From a virus, in IMG/VR virus record IMGVR_UViG_3300046012_000235, positions 1-22,045 of that record: a stretch of 22,045 bases of DNA; one strand, given 5' to 3'. Numbering within the stretch: the stretch's first letter is position 1; every line of letters begins with the position of its first letter. The translations under genes were made by a program, and so were the position numbers. This document shows, piece after piece, positions 15,391-22,045 of this stretch. The notes beneath the pieces are model-generated. The model saw only the letters and a list, made by a program, of their open reading frames with translations, made no database searches and had not been told where the DNA came from.

Positions 15391-15430
15391 CCAAAAAATA
15401 ATGGGGGTCATCGATCCAGCGACAACCCCC
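15391..15430 (-). terminator. Intrinsic terminator downstream of the helicase/H1-like gene
   Basis: On the minus strand gggggttgtc pairs with gatgaccccc (10 bp including two G-U pairs; plus 15403-15430) around an 8-base loop, followed by ATTATTTTTT. This is a strong rho-independent terminator placed 11 bases after the helicase stop and before the next minus-strand gene. The tail of the T-run lies next to that gene's ribosome binding site. Confidence 0.8.
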
Positions 15431-15440
15431 GAGAAAAACG

Positions 15441-15686
15441 TTACGCGGCTTTCTTGGTCAGCTTGGAGACGACCTTGTCTGCCTCAGCCTTCGTATCCCA
15501 ACCATAGCTCTTGCCAGTCTTGGGGATGTTGTTGTCACGCAGTTTGTTGCGTGCCGCACTTGCAGACAGGTCCAGTGCGTCGGCGACATAACTGATACCG
15601 ACAGCCTTCTTTGCTGGTGCATCTTTCGCCTTCTTTGCCGGTGCAGTCTTCTTCGCCGCCTTCTTGGCGGGTTTCTTGTCGGCCAT
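15441..15686 (-). CDS. Nested in-frame gene: H1-like basic DNA-binding protein (81 residues)
   Basis: Inside the helicase frame, AAGGAG stands six bases before an ATG at 15686, an ideal translation start. The product begins MADKKPAKKAAKKTAPAKKA, a histone-H1-like repeat tail (about residues 1-28). It continues into a compact domain (about 29-81) with VADALDLSASAARNKLRDNNIPKTG and YGWDTKAEADKVVSKL, resembling a small winged or helix-turn-helix DNA-binding unit that I recall from standalone phage proteins. Expected role: non-specific DNA binding or compaction. It could be made on its own, as the helicase C-terminus, or both. The strong binding site is the main evidence for independent synthesis. 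Confidence 0.65.
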   Translation of the reverse strand: MADKKPAKKAAKKTAPAKKAKDAPAKKAVGISYVADALDLSASAARNKLRDNNIPKTGKSYGWDTKAEADKVVSKLTKKAA

Positions 15687-17141
15687 TGAATTCTCCTTAA
15701 TGTGTTTCATGATCGGATTGACGGTCTCACTCTTGGTGATTACCCGTCTTAACGGTTCTTCGTCAATAGTATTTCTGGCAATAAGAAGAAAAACTCTTAC
15801 TCGTTTCTCTTGACCATACCGTCGGAAGCGAGCGATGATCTGCTGAAAATCAATATAGCTGTAACCCATTGAATAAAATACGAGTTCATTGGTCGCGGTA
15901 AACTCGATACTCACACCACCTGTGCGAGCTTGTACTGCCAACGCGCCAATTTTCTTGGCCTGAAAATCCTCAAGCAGTCGGGTTCGGGCCTTATCCTTCT
16001 TCTTATCTTTGACGGCACCACTCAACGTCTGAACGTTGTCGAACTTTGTGTCGAGAATTTGTTTCACGTCTGCCAGTTCTGTGAGAAATCGACAGAACAC
16101 CACGGGTCGGGTCAACTGGTTTATCAACCATGAGAGTCTTCGCTGTTTTGCTTTGCCTACGATTTGCGTGGTGCCATCATCCATCGCAAGACTGCCGCCG
16201 ACGATTTGAAAACACCGAAGATCTCGCACAGGCTTGAGACCCGCTTTTGCTTTTTTACCCTCGATTTTTACGATGCCATGATCAGCCATCTGTTCGTAGA
16301 CGCGACGTTGCGATCCGAGCAATTCGGTGTAGACGGGAATGAATTCCGGTTCTTCCATGTCGTTAGTCAGACGACACAGGTATGGCGAGACGCGAGCCAA
16401 AAACTCTGGCAGTCTTTCAGGAATGAATGCGCGCTCATATCCCATAAATCCGCATGGACGGCAAAAATCTTCCTCGAAATATGGGCCGATGTACTTGCTG
16501 CGATTGCGCGGCGGTGCCCAGACATCACCCAATGCCTCGGGCGCAATGAACCTCATCTGTGCCCACATATCAATCGGCGACTCATCGATAGGGGTACCGC
16601 TCAGGATCAGACGCTTAGGTATGCGCAGGCGAAGACGACGTATGGCGCGCGATTGATTGCTACCTCGATGCTTGAGTCCCTGCGATTCATCGACCAGGCA
16701 CATATCGAAACCATGCTTCTCGGCGAACTTGACAATTTTCTTGATGTTCTGCCGGAAATGCTCGAAGCCAACGAGTAGCACGCCTTCCTCATATTCGTGG
16801 ATGCTGTTGGCTATGTTGTCGTAGATTGTGCGCAAGCGTTTAGCCCAAGTGACCTCGAGCGATGTCAGAGGCGCGACAATGAGTAAACGTTTGGGCATGA
16901 AGTATTCGATGACAGCCATCGAGACCAGCGTTTTACCAGTGCCCGGGTCACTGAGCAATCCCGCACCTTTGTGGCACGACAAGTTCTCGATGATGAAATC
17001 AGCGCAACTTGCCTGATCGTCGTAGAGTTTTCCGTACCAGTCGTACGGCGTCTTCTGGTTCGACGATGACGGCGCTGACGCCCCCTGCGGCGATGACTTC
17101 CTCGATTTCATCCTGCTGGAGCTGACTACCGTCGGGCTCAT
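15441..17141 (-). CDS. SNF2/DEAD-like helicase fused to a C-terminal H1-like basic domain
   Basis: The product (566 residues from the ATG at 17141, which has AAGGA about 11 bases upstream; the alternatives are 17111 and 17207) carries superfamily 2 helicase motifs. Walker A is DPGTGKT (about 65-71), motif II is DESQ (151-154), motif III is SGTP (181-184), and later come VVFCRF, VQARTGGVSIEFT and QIIARFRRYGQ (434-444, motifs V/VI). It likely remodels or unwinds phage DNA. The last 81 residues are a Lys/Ala/Pro-rich H1-like tail plus a small globular domain, with an internal start (see next entry). There is no stop between the parts. The N-terminal Ser-rich region overlaps the VRR-NUC gene in another frame. 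Confidence 0.82.
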   Translation of the reverse strand: MSPTVVSSSRMKSRKSSPQGASAPSSSNQKTPYDWYGKLYDDQASCADFIIENLSCHKGAGLLSDPGTGKTLVSMAVIEYFMPKRLLIVAPLTSLEVTWAKRLRTIYDNIANSIHEYEEGVLLVGFEHFRQNIKKIVKFAEKHGFDMCLVDESQGLKHRGSNQSRAIRRLRLRIPKRLILSGTPIDESPIDMWAQMRFIAPEALGDVWAPPRNRSKYIGPYFEEDFCRPCGFMGYERAFIPERLPEFLARVSPYLCRLTNDMEEPEFIPVYTELLGSQRRVYEQMADHGIVKIEGKKAKAGLKPVRDLRCFQIVGGSLAMDDGTTQIVGKAKQRRLSWLINQLTRPVVFCRFLTELADVKQILDTKFDNVQTLSGAVKDKKKDKARTRLLEDFQAKKIGALAVQARTGGVSIEFTATNELVFYSMGYSYIDFQQIIARFRRYGQEKRVRVFLLIARNTIDEEPLRRVITKSETVNPIMKHIKENSMADKKPAKKAAKKTAPAKKAKDAPAKKAVGISYVADALDLSASAARNKLRDNNIPKTGKSYGWDTKAEADKVVSKLTKKAA

Positions 17142-17319
17142 CACTATCAGGTTCCTTAATTTCAAGTGCAAAGAAAAGTCCCTCGCAGCAACCGAGTATA
17201 TCTGCAATACCCGCCTGCTGAAAGGGACCCCCCCAGATCTTGCGCCAGTACCCGCCGACTTCGCGTTCGAGTAATTCTCTCGTCCGTTGCTGTCGGCGGG
17301 TTTCGCGTTTTTTAGTCAT
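16999..17319 (-). CDS. VRR-NUC nuclease
   Basis: The 106-residue protein has the VRR-NUC form of the PD-(D/E)XK nuclease fold: a basic N-terminus with TRELLEREVGGYWRKIWGGP, then QAGIADILGCCEGLFFALEIK, supplying the catalytic Asp (about residue 40) and the E-x-K pair (about 53-55), followed by QLQQDEIEEVIAAGGVSAVIV with the usual Gln. Small standalone VRR-NUC proteins are common in phages and act as structure-specific endonucleases or resolvase-like enzymes. The start overlaps the upstream gene by 8 bases. The 3' part overlaps the helicase gene by at least 113 bases in a different frame. Confidence 0.85.
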   Translation of the reverse strand: MTKKRETRRQQRTRELLEREVGGYWRKIWGGPFQQAGIADILGCCEGLFFALEIKEPDSDEPDGSQLQQDEIEEVIAAGGVSAVIVEPEDAVRLVRKTLRRSGKLR

Positions 17320-18010
17320 CAGTCGACAGGAGTTCTTTTTCCTCGAGTGCTGCGACGATGGCGGACGCCTTGCGTCGAGGAGTCTTGTGCTCCTTCAGGT
17401 CAACATCGAGATCATACTTCTCGATCAGGTCGGCCATTTCGTCGTCGTCCATTGCCTTGACTTCCTCGGCACTGACGGTTTCGAGTTCTTTCTTGCGACC
17501 TTTCTTGCCTTTTTTGCCGGTGTCTTCGCCATCATCTTCCTCGTCTTTCTTGCCTTTCTTCTTGTCTTTCTTGGGTTCATCCTCGTCCTTGTCGCCGTCG
17601 ACCGACGAAAAATCCTGGAGTTTGGACGTGACCTTGTTCTGGTATTCCTCGTCACCGACTGAACCGATGATTTCGAGATCGGTCATTTCGTCGAGATCGA
17701 GGTCGAGCGGACCATCGGGAACTTCGACGCCGAGGGCTTCGAGCAACGAACGCAATTTCCACAGACTGTCCGGCGGATCATAGACGGTGTAGAGATAGAA
17801 CTTCTTGCCTTTGGCCTTTCCTTCCTGGCCCTCGAATGTCCACTTGAACATCGAATTGCCGGCGTCGGACTCGGTATCCTCGACCTTTGCGACGGCCATG
17901 CGATAATCGCCTTCGGGAATTTTGAACCCACCGCCGCCACTTTCGACATCGGTAAAGTCGAGACTGACTGTGCGGTCTTTCGCCTTACGGCGTGCAGATG
18001 AACGTGCCAC
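17312..18010 (-). CDS. DUF669-like ssDNA-binding protein candidate with charged linker
   Basis: Translation starts at GTG with AAAGGA eight bases upstream. The 232-residue protein has an N-terminal beta domain (about 18-140) with GGFKIPEGDYRMAVAKVED, FKWTFEGQEGKAKGKKFYLY and LWKLRSLLEALGVEVPDG, the pattern of DUF669-type proteins, thought to bind single-stranded DNA. It continues with a Lys/Asp/Glu-rich linker (about 138-175) and a small helical C-terminal domain (SAEEVKAMDDDEMADLIEKYDLDV..., about 178-226) like SAP or Rho-N units. It sits between the Sak4-like ATPase and the nuclease and helicase, as an ssDNA-binding protein would in a recombination module. Confidence 0.68.
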   Translation of the reverse strand: MARSSARRKAKDRTVSLDFTDVESGGGGFKIPEGDYRMAVAKVEDTESDAGNSMFKWTFEGQEGKAKGKKFYLYTVYDPPDSLWKLRSLLEALGVEVPDGPLDLDLDEMTDLEIIGSVGDEEYQNKVTSKLQDFSSVDGDKDEDEPKKDKKKGKKDEEDDGEDTGKKGKKGRKKELETVSAEEVKAMDDDEMADLIEKYDLDVDLKEHKTPRRKASAIVAALEEKELLSTDD

Positions 18011-18012
18011 TT

Positions 18013-18840
18013 TTATATTCCTTTCTGAATATCTTCGATATCATCGTAGGTGGGGTTTGGGATACTTCTTGGGAGTTCGGCCGATTTAGGCTTTCTAAAT
18101 TTTCTTACGTAGATAGGGGAAGGGCCAGTGCCCAGTTGGTAAAGTGGTTCTTCCTTGTATGATTTTTTATTGCCTTTGACAATACTGCTTCTCTTCATAC
18201 TTATGAATGTATTGGCAATGACGTTGACAGCTGCGTTGAGCGTTGTAGCAATGCTCGGCATAACTGCCGGGCCTACCTCTGGTGTAAGCTGATTATCATC
18301 TCCTTCTTCATCTTCGTCTACATTTTTGACTCGCTCCTGTGCTAAAAACACTATCTTTATGTCGAGATCGCGAAAATCGGCAATCCACTTGTTCATGATC
18401 CCGGCGACATCACCCCAGTCACGTTTCGCCATCGAGCCCCAATCGCCGATGCGACTCTCATCGACTTTCTTGTTTTTGTTTTTGCCGAGGACGACTGACT
18501 TCATTACCAGCTTCTGCATCTCAGTCAATGTGTCAAAAACGACGGTCTTATAATTGTGTTTGTCGTCTCTCAAGTAGTAATAGATTTCCTCGATGTCGTC
18601 GAGATTTTCCACTTCGAGAACACGCACTCCTTTGACATCGATGATGCTGCCAGTCCCTTTATCACGGATATCGAGCAACAGAAGCGGCTTGGGAAAACTC
18701 GCGGCTAATGTCGTTTTGCCGGTACCTGATCGACCATAAAAAAGATAACTTGAAGTGCCTGACACATCAGCTACGTCTTGAATGCGATCTTCGATCCCGC
18801 CCGTCTTACTCTTCGACCGGTTCTTCGGCTTCATACTCAT
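18013..18840 (-). CDS. Sak4-like RecA-fold ATPase
   Basis: The frame opens upstream at 18927, but the region beyond 18840 overlaps the nuclease gene. The ATG at 18840 is preferred because GAGAGAGGG precedes it, although the spacing of about 11 bases is long; the ATG at 18834 is also possible. The 275-residue product has Walker A GRSGTGKT (about 36-43), a Walker B-like VVFDT (Asp about 103), and VFLAQERVK with a polar sensor residue. This fits the phage AAA_24/Sak4 family of single-strand annealing or RecA-like recombination ATPases. Neighbouring ssDNA-binding and nuclease genes support a recombination or replication role. It overlaps the nuclease gene by 35 bases. Confidence 0.78.
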   Translation of the reverse strand: MSMKPKNRSKSKTGGIEDRIQDVADVSGTSSYLFYGRSGTGKTTLAASFPKPLLLLDIRDKGTGSIIDVKGVRVLEVENLDDIEEIYYYLRDDKHNYKTVVFDTLTEMQKLVMKSVVLGKNKNKKVDESRIGDWGSMAKRDWGDVAGIMNKWIADFRDLDIKIVFLAQERVKNVDEDEEGDDNQLTPEVGPAVMPSIATTLNAAVNVIANTFISMKRSSIVKGNKKSYKEEPLYQLGTGPSPIYVRKFRKPKSAELPRSIPNPTYDDIEDIQKGI

Positions 18841-19816
18841 TTTCTTCAAACCCTCTCTCTTTGATGAAATCAACGTCATGGCCTTGCAACTCGGCGGCGC
18901 AAAGTTCCCTATATCCGCACCACTCACAATGACGCCCGAATGTCTTGGTCTTCGATTTGCCGTGCAGTTCAGACATCTCGCGCGAGGTATCGATCAAGTC
19001 GTCCATCACAGGCTGAATGATGTCCTTGCTCACCGGCGTGAACACTCGTTGAAACCACGTCGCTTGATTTTCTTCCTGCTGCTTGATCACCTCGGCATAA
19101 TTCGCCGACTTCAATTTGTTCTGCTTGAGCACGTCCATCACCACACCAGGCAATGAGTCCAACGCAGCGCGCGACATTTCTCCTGACTTGAGGATCGCCG
19201 GGCGCGTCGGCGGCTTAGAGCGAATGTAGTCCCAGCAGGTGCCGTCGAGTTTGCCCCATCCCATCATCTCGACGATGCGGATATAGAACACCGACTGCAG
19301 GTTACGCCACCGGTTCTCAGGCTTCGGGAATGCCTTGTGCGATTTATGCTCGACTAACCACTTCAATTTCTTGGCTTTGCCTATCGCGTCAATGCGTCCT
19401 TTCGCCAAGATACCATCGGCGATCTCGACTTCAAACGGATGTTCGCACTTGAGTTTGCCGATTGACAGATATTCGATAGACTCCGGTCGATTATCCCAGT
19501 AGTCGAAGTAGTGCGTCATGATGTAGCCGACGTCTTTGACAATTTCGCCGTACATCTCGCGCTCGGCGTCGAAGAGTTTCTCGTTGGTCTTGGCGATATT
19601 CGCCAACGCCTTGAATGGGTTCTTGCCGTTGATGTCAGTTTCGACCAGTTCATGGACGATGCTACCGAATTTCAGCGGTCGAGCTTTTTTCTTGGGCGCG
19701 ATTTTCTCGACATGGGCGTAGTGATACGCCTGACGACATTGCCGCCATTTGCTCACTTTGCTTTGTGAGATTTTGAACAGACCACTATCCGATGGCTTCT
19801 TTTTAGAATTCGACAT
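18806..19816 (-). CDS. Cas4/RecB-like PD-(D/E)XK nuclease with Fe-S cluster
   Basis: The 336-residue protein has the order of motifs seen in Cas4/AddB-like nucleases: SQSKVSKWRQCRQAYHY with Cys27, GSIVHELVE with His55, GRIDAIG with Asp143, LVEHKSH with Glu156 and Lys158, and NLQSVFY with Gln174. Near the end, RHCEWCGYRELC gives Cys297, Cys300 and Cys306. Cys27 plus this trio forms the typical four-cysteine 4Fe-4S site. Such enzymes resect DNA ends, often with a partner recombinase; here a Sak4-like ATPase follows directly. The acidic tail (GFEENEYEAEEPVEE) may contact partners. The start overlaps the polymerase stop by 14 bases. No cas1 or cas2 is present, so this is not a CRISPR gene. Confidence 0.85.
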   Translation of the reverse strand: MSNSKKKPSDSGLFKISQSKVSKWRQCRQAYHYAHVEKIAPKKKARPLKFGSIVHELVETDINGKNPFKALANIAKTNEKLFDAEREMYGEIVKDVGYIMTHYFDYWDNRPESIEYLSIGKLKCEHPFEVEIADGILAKGRIDAIGKAKKLKWLVEHKSHKAFPKPENRWRNLQSVFYIRIVEMMGWGKLDGTCWDYIRSKPPTRPAILKSGEMSRAALDSLPGVVMDVLKQNKLKSANYAEVIKQQEENQATWFQRVFTPVSKDIIQPVMDDLIDTSREMSELHGKSKTKTFGRHCEWCGYRELCAAELQGHDVDFIKERGFEENEYEAEEPVEE

Positions 19817-22045
19817 TTTTACCCTCGCTCCATGCGCCGACTTTGACTTCGCCCTCTATGGGTAATGATATCTCGACGCCGAACACCTTGAGAAGATCGG
19901 GGCCTCGCATAATTTCAGTAAGGCGTTTCGCCACAATCTTCATGTGAGAATCTGAGACGTCTACCAATATCGCGTCATGGATCGTTCCGTTAATGAATAA
20001 CTCTTTGCCCGGGAACTCTTTCCTTAACTGAAGTGCAGCCATTATGTTCAGGTCGCTGGCGAATGATTGCACAGGACTATTGACGGCCTGACGCTCGGCC
20101 TCACGTCGTTCGGGCGTATCATGCGACATCGTGGCGGCGGGCAGTCGTCGCTTGCGTCCTATCGGGTTGATCACGTAACCATTCATGCGAGCATAACGTT
20201 TTTGCTTATCATGCCAATCCGGGAAGTCAGGCCAACTCTCAAAGAAATTGAGGCGAGACTCCTGTGCCTCTTCGTCGGTGACGATAACGCCGTAGTTGTC
20301 GCGAGCGTATATCTTGAATTTTTTCCACCACATTCCGTAAAGATACCCGAAGTTCACCGCCTTCGCTTTCTTGCGCAGTTCCTTCCATACCTTGTCAATC
20401 TCGACCGCGGCGTCGGCGCCAGCTTTCAATAGCACTTTGATGGCTTCAGCATATCGTATTTTGAGGTCTTTGCTGATGGCCTTGGCCGTACGCAAAATAA
20501 GTTCGGCTTCAGCACCACCGCGCGCCAACTCATTGAGGGCAGTCATCCAATGCGGATCACCCCCTTGCTGGAACACCTTGATCATGTTCTGCTCATCAGC
20601 AAGCCACGCCGCGATACGCAACTCAATCTGTGACAAGTCCGCGTCGAGCAGGTGGCGACCCGGCGGCGCGCATATCAACGAACGGATGCGAGGATCACGT
20701 GGGACCTGCTGCAAGTTTGGATTTTCACAGGAAGGTCGACCGGTGACGGTACCGTGTAACTTGAACGACGGGTGCAGGCGTGAGTTGATGATGTAGGGTT
20801 TCCAGCCCTCGATAAAAAATGACAGTTGCTGTGCGGCCCCACGATACTTGAGTAATGACGCGACGCATGGATGATCGATCTGGTTGAGTGTGCTTTCCGA
20901 TGTCGACCGACCGCCTTTCGGTGTCAGCTGCGGACATTTGATCTTGAGTTTGTCATAGAGCAATTCGCCGATCTGTTTGGGAGACGCCATGTTGACGCCT
21001 TTGCCCCACTTATTCCATTCCTTCTCAGCCTTGGCGATTTCCTCGCGCAAATACTTTTCAGCATCGGCCATCTTCGCTTCGTTGATGTAGACACCGTGAT
21101 ACTCGATCTCACAGAACAGGTTAGTCGTCGGCATCGTCAGATGATCGAACAATCGTTTGGTGCGACTTTCTTTCTTGAGGTCCTGCATCAGTCTGAAGCG
21201 AAGCTTGCGGGTATAGTAGCCATCGGTCGCACCATATTGACAATGCCGCTCGAGCGAACCGAAGCCGTGTTTCTCGTGCACCGGAATGTCGTAGTTCTTG
21301 GCCCCGAAGTACAACGCCGACAAATGCTCGAGGTCATGCAGTGAATTTTCATCGAGATTGTAGTGTGCGAGCATGGTGTCAAAGCTGATGGTCAACCGGT
21401 GACCAGTTTTCACCCATGTCCATATCACGTCGAACTTCATGTTCTGTCCGACGAGTTCGCACTCGTCCAGCACCGGCAGCAACCGATCCCACAGGTCCTG
21501 TTGTGCGTTCTCGTTCTTCAACGCCAGGCGTCCCATCCACTCATATTTGTCGAGTAAGTTTGCCGGCATGTCGGTCGGACATTTCCACCCCTGCGGCCCA
21601 AGAACACATTCGCTATGATTGAGCGGAATGACAAATTGCTCACCTTGAACGCCGAGAATGATGCTGGTGATCCACGTCTTCTGACGTTTGTTTGTCTCGA
21701 GACTCTTTAACCCCCAAGGATATAGACCGCTTGTCTCGAGGTCATACGCGACGACGCCGCTGAGTTTCTCGAGCATTGCGTCGAATTTTTTGTCCGAGTC
21801 AATGATGCTGTAATTGACGCCTCGCTCATACGGGATATCGCCGAAATCTACGATGTCTCGAAACGATTGAATATCCTTTTCGATTACAGCGCGTTGCCTT
21901 GGGTCTCTCAGTGCAAACGACGGATGAAACGTCGGTAGTATTATCATCCCGTCCTTCTTGACCGGCTTGCCTCTTAATTTCTTGACGCCACTCACGCCAA
22001 GCAACGAGTAAAGCGGGACGTTGCCCAAGGTCAGAATGAACTTCC
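19803..22045 (-). CDS. Uracil-DNA glycosylase / family A DNA polymerase fusion (5' end outside window)
   Basis: The frame is open to the window edge. Numbering here starts from the TTG (Leu) codon at 22028; KFILT is read before it. The visible N-terminus (LGNVPLYSLLGV, then LPTFHPSFALRDP) is the C-terminal end of a family 4/5-like uracil-DNA glycosylase. Next comes a 3'-5' exonuclease: DLETSG (97-101), NMKFD (196-200) and YGATDGYY (265-272). The polymerase follows: motif A ADLSQIELR (463-471), motif B RKKAKAVNFGYLYG (552-565), motif C IHDAILVD (683-690). It should replicate phage DNA with proofreading. About 39 extra residues lie between DPH (491) and motif B compared with E. coli Pol I. Motif C reads HDA in place of HDE. 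There is no 5'-3' exonuclease domain in the visible part. Confidence 0.9.
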   Translation of the reverse strand, partial: KFILTLGNVPLYSLLGVSGVKKLRGKPVKKDGMIILPTFHPSFALRDPRQRAVIEKDIQSFRDIVDFGDIPYERGVNYSIIDSDKKFDAMLEKLSGVVAYDLETSGLYPWGLKSLETNKRQKTWITSIILGVQGEQFVIPLNHSECVLGPQGWKCPTDMPANLLDKYEWMGRLALKNENAQQDLWDRLLPVLDECELVGQNMKFDVIWTWVKTGHRLTISFDTMLAHYNLDENSLHDLEHLSALYFGAKNYDIPVHEKHGFGSLERHCQYGATDGYYTRKLRFRLMQDLKKESRTKRLFDHLTMPTTNLFCEIEYHGVYINEAKMADAEKYLREEIAKAEKEWNKWGKGVNMASPKQIGELLYDKLKIKCPQLTPKGGRSTSESTLNQIDHPCVASLLKYRGAAQQLSFFIEGWKPYIINSRLHPSFKLHGTVTGRPSCENPNLQQVPRDPRIRSLICAPPGRHLLDADLSQIELRIAAWLADEQNMIKVFQQGGDPHWMTALNELARGGAEAELILRTAKAISKDLKIRYAEAIKVLLKAGADAAVEIDKVWKELRKKAKAVNFGYLYGMWWKKFKIYARDNYGVIVTDEEAQESRLNFFESWPDFPDWHDKQKRYARMNGYVINPIGRKRRLPAATMSHDTPERREAERQAVNSPVQSFASDLNIMAALQLRKEFPGKELFINGTIHDAILVDVSDSHMKIVAKRLTEIMRGPDLLKVFGVEISLPIEGEVKVGAWSEGKNVEF

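Follow-up and report, generated by a model that had tools for sequence, protein, structure and literature searches.

A phage SNF2-type helicase gene with an internal in-frame start predicted to yield a free DNA-binding partner

The window, that is, the whole stretch of 22,045 nt of viral DNA analysed here, carries on its minus strand an operon for a DNA polymerase, an exonuclease, an ATPase, an SSB-like protein and an endonuclease, of which the gene under study is the last (Table 1). The name VRR-NUC-like given to the endonuclease is our own reading, because Pfam contained no match for it. The first part of the last gene matches Pfam PF00176 (2e-14) and PHROG 62 (3.6e-78) and displays the hallmarks of SNF2 and SF2 proteins: a Walker A motif (GTGKT), a DE-x-Q motif and a C-terminal helicase domain. 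By these features it is an SNF2-type SF2 helicase, a predicted translocase on double-stranded DNA, and the content of the operon suggests a role in recombination-linked replication rather than that of a replicative fork helicase. The start of the helicase sits 143 nt within the VRR-NUC-like gene in another frame (16999..17141), and the first ~31 residues, coded in this overlap, are disordered in the structural model. The C-terminal half of the DUF669/SSB-like protein is long and rich in Lys, Asp and Glu, and represents a second charged low-complexity tail within the operon.

The minus-strand open reading frame 15441..17207 contains zero internal stops. The original prediction that the helicase frame stays open through AAGGAG, 6 nt and the ATG at 15686 into an 81-residue tail was confirmed, with coordinates that match exactly: the junction (15698..15684) reads AAGGAG-AATTCA-ATG, and from the internal ATG 81 residues follow up to the TAA at 15443..15441. 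A Shine-Dalgarno (SD) sequence and a start codon are therefore found inside a longer open reading frame, as in a same-frame gene-within-gene. The strong terminator that had been proposed to follow the stop codon is likewise present.

Table 1. Features of the fused gene and its operon in the window
Feature	Position	Strand	Description and basis
Whole fused ORF	15441..17141	-	566 aa: SNF2 helicase, linker, winged-helix domain
Likely start ATG	17141	-	First well-placed start; AAGGAA upstream; preceded by AAGGAACCTGATAGTG
SNF2-type helicase part	15687..17141	-	485 aa (residues 1-485)
Internal SD AAGGAG	15693..15698	-	Within helicase codons K-E
Internal in-frame ATG	15684..15686	-	Predicted start of free tail protein; 6 nt after AAGGAG
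Lys/Ala/Pro-rich flexible linker	15603..15683	-	Tail residues 2-28; composition and low-confidence model
Winged-helix/HTH domain (predicted)	15444..15602	-	Tail residues 29-81
Intrinsic terminator ending the operon	15403..15430	-	11 pairs, 7 GC, then ATTATTTTTT
VRR-NUC-like endonuclease	16999..17319	-	PHROG 93 endonuclease 7e-13; no Pfam match
DUF669/SSB-like protein	17312..18010	-	Pfam/PHROG searches
Sak4-like recombinase/annealing ATPase	18013..18927	-	PHROG 124 3e-35
PD-(D/E)XK exonuclease	18806..19816	-	Pfam/PHROG searches
Family A DNA polymerase	19803..22043	-	Runs off the window; Pfam/PHROG searches

The description of the tail as a Lys/Ala/Pro-rich stretch followed by a small DNA-binding-like domain was also borne out. 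The tail is strongly basic (21 Lys and Arg against 8 Asp and Glu), and its model shows a winged helix at residues 31-80 (block pLDDT 83-91) preceded by a disordered Lys/Ala/Pro stretch. Conserved residues of the domain are R46, L49, R50, K56, G58, Y61 and W63. The nearest structures retrieved by Foldseek were the DNA-binding domains of RacA and pSK1 Par (probability 0.96-0.97, none with E<0.001), and the top matches, which include RacA, pSK1 Par, MerR and Xis, reached a best E of 0.09 and a TM score of up to 0.59; the MerR/RacA type of winged helix, with its strand-helix-helix-hairpin-helix fold, is a candidate for the domain. DNA binding by the tail is inferred from this predicted fold and from the charge. 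The term 'H1-like' applied by the original prediction holds for composition only; a comparison of the tail with the Pfam and PHROG models gave zero matches to histone-H1-like families, and homology to histone H1 was rejected, the folded part being a predicted winged helix. The model of the fused protein has high confidence for the helicase core (residues 35-470) and for the winged helix, whereas pLDDT is below 50 over residues 473-510, so that the modelled protein is a translocase with a flexibly tethered, predicted DNA-binding domain.

Relatives were collected by a DNA polymerase search, which gave 41 IMG/VR loci, and by helicase alignments, which added more; single-sequence scans with the helicase alone or the tail alone gave zero matches, and an alignment of tails (A3) proved too diverse for scanning. 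The collection comprised 110 unique loci with the helicase, and an invariant Lys near the helicase end served as the anchor for 62 loci that have a tail. The partner gene lies directly 3′ of the helicase in all 62, and the tail starts 41-70 nt past the invariant Lys in 61 of them and 99 nt past it in one. In alignment, the internal ATG of the window falls where the separate tail genes of relatives begin. A search with the tail only retrieved 36 loci, and in each of the 35 with sufficient upstream sequence the helicase was found directly upstream. Because helicase and tail adjoin in 62/62 and 35/35 loci, the tail is, from gene order, a dedicated partner of this helicase and no stray histone. 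The more distant helicases among the search results have no tail. Among named phages, the Brevundimonas phages Strzyga and Polewnik (ON529867, ON529863) share with the window the helicase, the partner gene and the operon order, and differ from it in that the two genes are separate, 2 nt apart and out of frame; Desulfofustis phage LS06-2018-MD02 also carries helicase and tail as separate or overlapping genes.

Inspection of the junctions in these relatives demonstrated that the position of the helicase stop varies. Instead of being separate genes throughout, which would have spoken against the original prediction, the two parts are separate in 27 of the 62 loci, overlap by at most 4 nt in 4, overlap by more and out of frame in 22, and are fused in frame in 9, namely the window, L030, L053, L056 grouped with L173, and L059 grouped with L126, L181 and L128. 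An SD-like site is retained in every fused gene examined, as is a start codon, which in L181 is GTG. Loci L032 and L063, initially taken as fused, were rejected, as the BLAST segments had run past a stop. Locus L003 (14320..14616) was excluded from the counts. Its tail ATG shares the frame of the helicase, but the conserved tail domain occupies another one, the frame changing inside the Lys/Ala-rich linker through mutation, error or frameshifting; a Phenylobacterium MAG (NMUI01000013.1) contains the L003 contig as well.

On helicase trees, which were quick searches with several long-branch entries, the fused state requires five changes among the IMG/VR entries and six when cultivated isolates are included, of which at least four are forced by well-supported branches, although parsimony alone cannot separate gains from losses of the fusion. 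A single fused clade was rejected (p-AU 4e-5) for a group that had been named after the first tree. The sister of the window (L046/L055; 45% identity, SH-aLRT 99) has an ATGA start/stop overlap. Its helicase ends in ...MKHIEEKST, whereas the window reads ...MKHIKENS-MADKK, and the SD-to-ATG spacer measures 8 nt in the sister and 6 nt in the window. This 2-nt difference brings the ATG of the window into the helicase frame and thereby removes the stop. Thus, the proposed loss of a stop codon between two adjacent genes has to be modified for the window, where a changed spacer length and not a point mutation of a stop codon accounts for the fusion; it does appear to describe L030. The tail of L046/L055 (4452..4691) is divergent and HTH-like and lacks the Lys-rich linker, and the short 'tail' of L055 is a divergent match, which scores 14 bits with a profile from which it had been excluded. 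In L146, the next relative, a tail is lacking altogether. A closer relative of the window was sought and none was found.

The arrangement also exists in cultivated phages, which were reached through a structure match to the helicase of PMBT14 and a protein search. Nine isolates, whose helicases form another clade, are fused: the Pseudomonas phages PMBT14, Almagne, Lebethron and STP12, Stutzerimonas phage STP9, Yersinia phage P744 and the Serratia phages Serbin, Opt-155 and Tlacuache. All nine encode in one frame the helicase, a Met-Ala-x start (MATK, MAKK or MAKP), a basic linker and the tail domain, which the tail profile finds at E 3e-9 to 3e-12 in the four isolates tested. PMBT14 (Knuthellervirus; AUM59753.1), Serbin (QBQ72953.1) and P744 (XAO54164.1) resemble the window in having an SNF2 helicase, a Lys-rich linker and the tail in frame, with an internal SD and ATG, but they belong to a distant helicase clade, carry an extra C-terminal Lys/Ala-rich stretch and are annotated as a single helicase. 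One protein is listed at this place in all 7 annotated isolate records.

The strength of the internal SD was then considered. The duplex energy at the internal start of the window is -9.2; of the 91 internal ATGs examined within fused helicases, 3% match this value. Mean energies were -8.5 for fused genes, -6.5 for separate tail genes and -3.0 for other internal ATGs. Since such an energy is rare among internal ATGs and the tail is conserved in about 60 relatives, the fusion with its internal start goes beyond chance. The seven codons preceding the internal start were then resampled synonymously in 14 fused genes. The starts of the isolates had been chosen by peptide motif and the others partly by their SD, although the chosen codon is the only start codon in the stretch where the tails of relatives begin. 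The SD proved stronger than the encoded peptide calls for (Fisher p 8e-5 for the 14 genes; 0.003 with one gene per lineage, 0.010 for cultivated phages only and 0.069 for the window alone), values that are optimistic because several of the genes are related. A set of 154 control Met codons went in the opposite direction. Codon choice before the internal start therefore favours the SD beyond what the protein sequence demands.

The reading frame itself gives a further indication. Separate genes showed 18 changes of junction length accompanied by 11 changes of frame, and overlapping genes 9 and 5. Within fused clades there were 3 length changes and 0 frame changes, with one more length change between the Serratia/Yersinia and the Pseudomonas isolates, and the fused junctions vary by whole codons (8, 9 or 10 in the L059 clade, 12 or 8 in the L056 clade, a difference of 5 between isolates). 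With about four events, frame preservation within fused clades is suggestive, not strong. For the off-frame overlaps, no selection for openness was detected, their lengths being no longer than synonymous resampling predicts, so these overlaps look like by-products. Most of them give the helicase a strongly basic C-terminus, because Lys and Ala codons read out of frame yield Arg, Pro and Ser. In L010, L045, L089 and their relatives, the helicase frame runs 76-229 nt through the partner gene out of frame, with Arg/Pro/Ser-rich C-termini of net charge +9 to +21 and chance-like lengths.

Taken together, these results make it likely that the locus is a gene-within-gene, in which one gene would provide both a flexibly tethered helicase and a free DNA-binding protein. 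Translation of the full length from 17141 would give the SNF2 translocase with its Lys-rich tether and winged-helix domain, and initiation at the internal SD and ATG 15686 would give the free 81-residue DNA-binding protein, probably in excess. The free tail would be the usual partner of the helicase, binding DNA as in relatives with separate genes, and the fusion would fix one copy permanently on the translocase. This fused copy may hold the translocase nearby, and on branched intermediates of recombination the tether may make the helicase more processive or raise its local concentration. Of the two origins first proposed, an evolved gene with two predicted products is thus favoured by the recurrence of the fusion in six lineages, its retention in three clades through in-frame length changes and the SD beyond peptide need. 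Counting against a two-product gene, the window has no fused close relative and its sister shows the ATGA overlap with a divergent tail; moreover, arbitrary extensions of the C-terminus are evidently tolerated by the helicase, as 22 relatives have off-frame overlaps.

This tolerance leads to another explanation, which we regard as unlikely, namely that insertions and deletions in the spacer set the downstream frame at random, so that the fusion protein would arise as a neutral by-product, the helicase core and the free tail being all that matters. The helicase stop is absent before or at the tail start in 31 of the 62 loci, with frames 0, 1 and 2 all represented, the off-frame overlap lengths match synonymous resampling, and the window is separated from its ATGA sister by a 2-nt change. 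However, three clades have kept the fusion while its junction changed in length several times by whole codons, and cultivated phages of four host genera carry it; random frame setting is probably correct for the origin of the fusion and not for its maintenance. Less probable still is a single product, a helicase with a C-terminal DNA-binding domain whose internal start is an unused relic: the annotated records of the cultivated fused phages each list one protein, but the internal SD exceeds the requirement of the peptide, the reverse of what control Met codons show, and all fused genes examined retain a start codon together with an SD-like site. An assembly or sequencing error that removed a stop or shifted the frame is very improbable. 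Although the window is one uncultivated contig, both parts remain intact as far as the junction, which is free of homopolymers, and the arrangement is shared by nine isolate genomes and a further eight metagenomic loci. For the family as a whole, we lean slightly towards an obligate pair of helicase and DNA-binding protein in which the reading frame at the junction sets the stoichiometry and lineages switch repeatedly among separate, off-frame and in-frame states.

Same-frame internal starts are a known kind of gene organisation. The short form of the product of phage T7 gene 4 arises from an in-frame internal start. As predicted for the window, two helicase-related isoforms come from one phage gene, the 63 and 56 kDa forms of the primase-helicase (PMC9198812); in contrast, both T7 forms hold the helicase, a RecA-fold hexamer, whereas the window encodes an SNF2 helicase and its short product would consist of the DNA-binding tail only. 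In cas8b, the C-terminal domain is also made separately from an internal in-frame ATG and, as Cas11b, forms a free small subunit (PMC11899642); other Cas11 proteins likewise come from internal starts. As in the window, one gene would supply a large protein and a free C-terminal part that works with it, with a possible SD inside the reading frame, but the large protein there is part of a CRISPR effector and not a helicase, and both products were shown by tagging and mutation, whereas those of the window are predicted. In the rpn genes, the C-terminal domain (RpnS) of a DNA-acting enzyme (RpnL) is also separately translated from within the gene (PMC10327210); RpnS, however, inhibits a toxic nuclease, and nothing seen in the present gene points to a toxin or an inhibitor. 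Because these three systems were already known, the claim of a new arrangement for a phage helicase was too strong. What appears new is the SNF2 version with a nested partner and the switching of the junction: in a literature search, whose silence is weak evidence, we did not find an SNF2 helicase with a nested DNA-binding partner or recurrent junction switching described.

The consequences reach beyond the window. Standard annotation hides the predicted second product, and an unannotated DNA-binding protein of ~9-13 kDa is predicted in the nine cultivated phages. To our knowledge, most genes-within-genes described so far are isolated cases. The partner pair studied here occurs across dozens of phages as separate genes, with a 4-nt overlap, with a long off-frame overlap and nested in frame and, since all intermediate states are present, it allows one to follow and test how a two-product gene arises and is maintained. 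In conclusion, if the interpretation is true, this family of phage helicases would provide a natural experiment on the birth and retention of a gene-within-gene.
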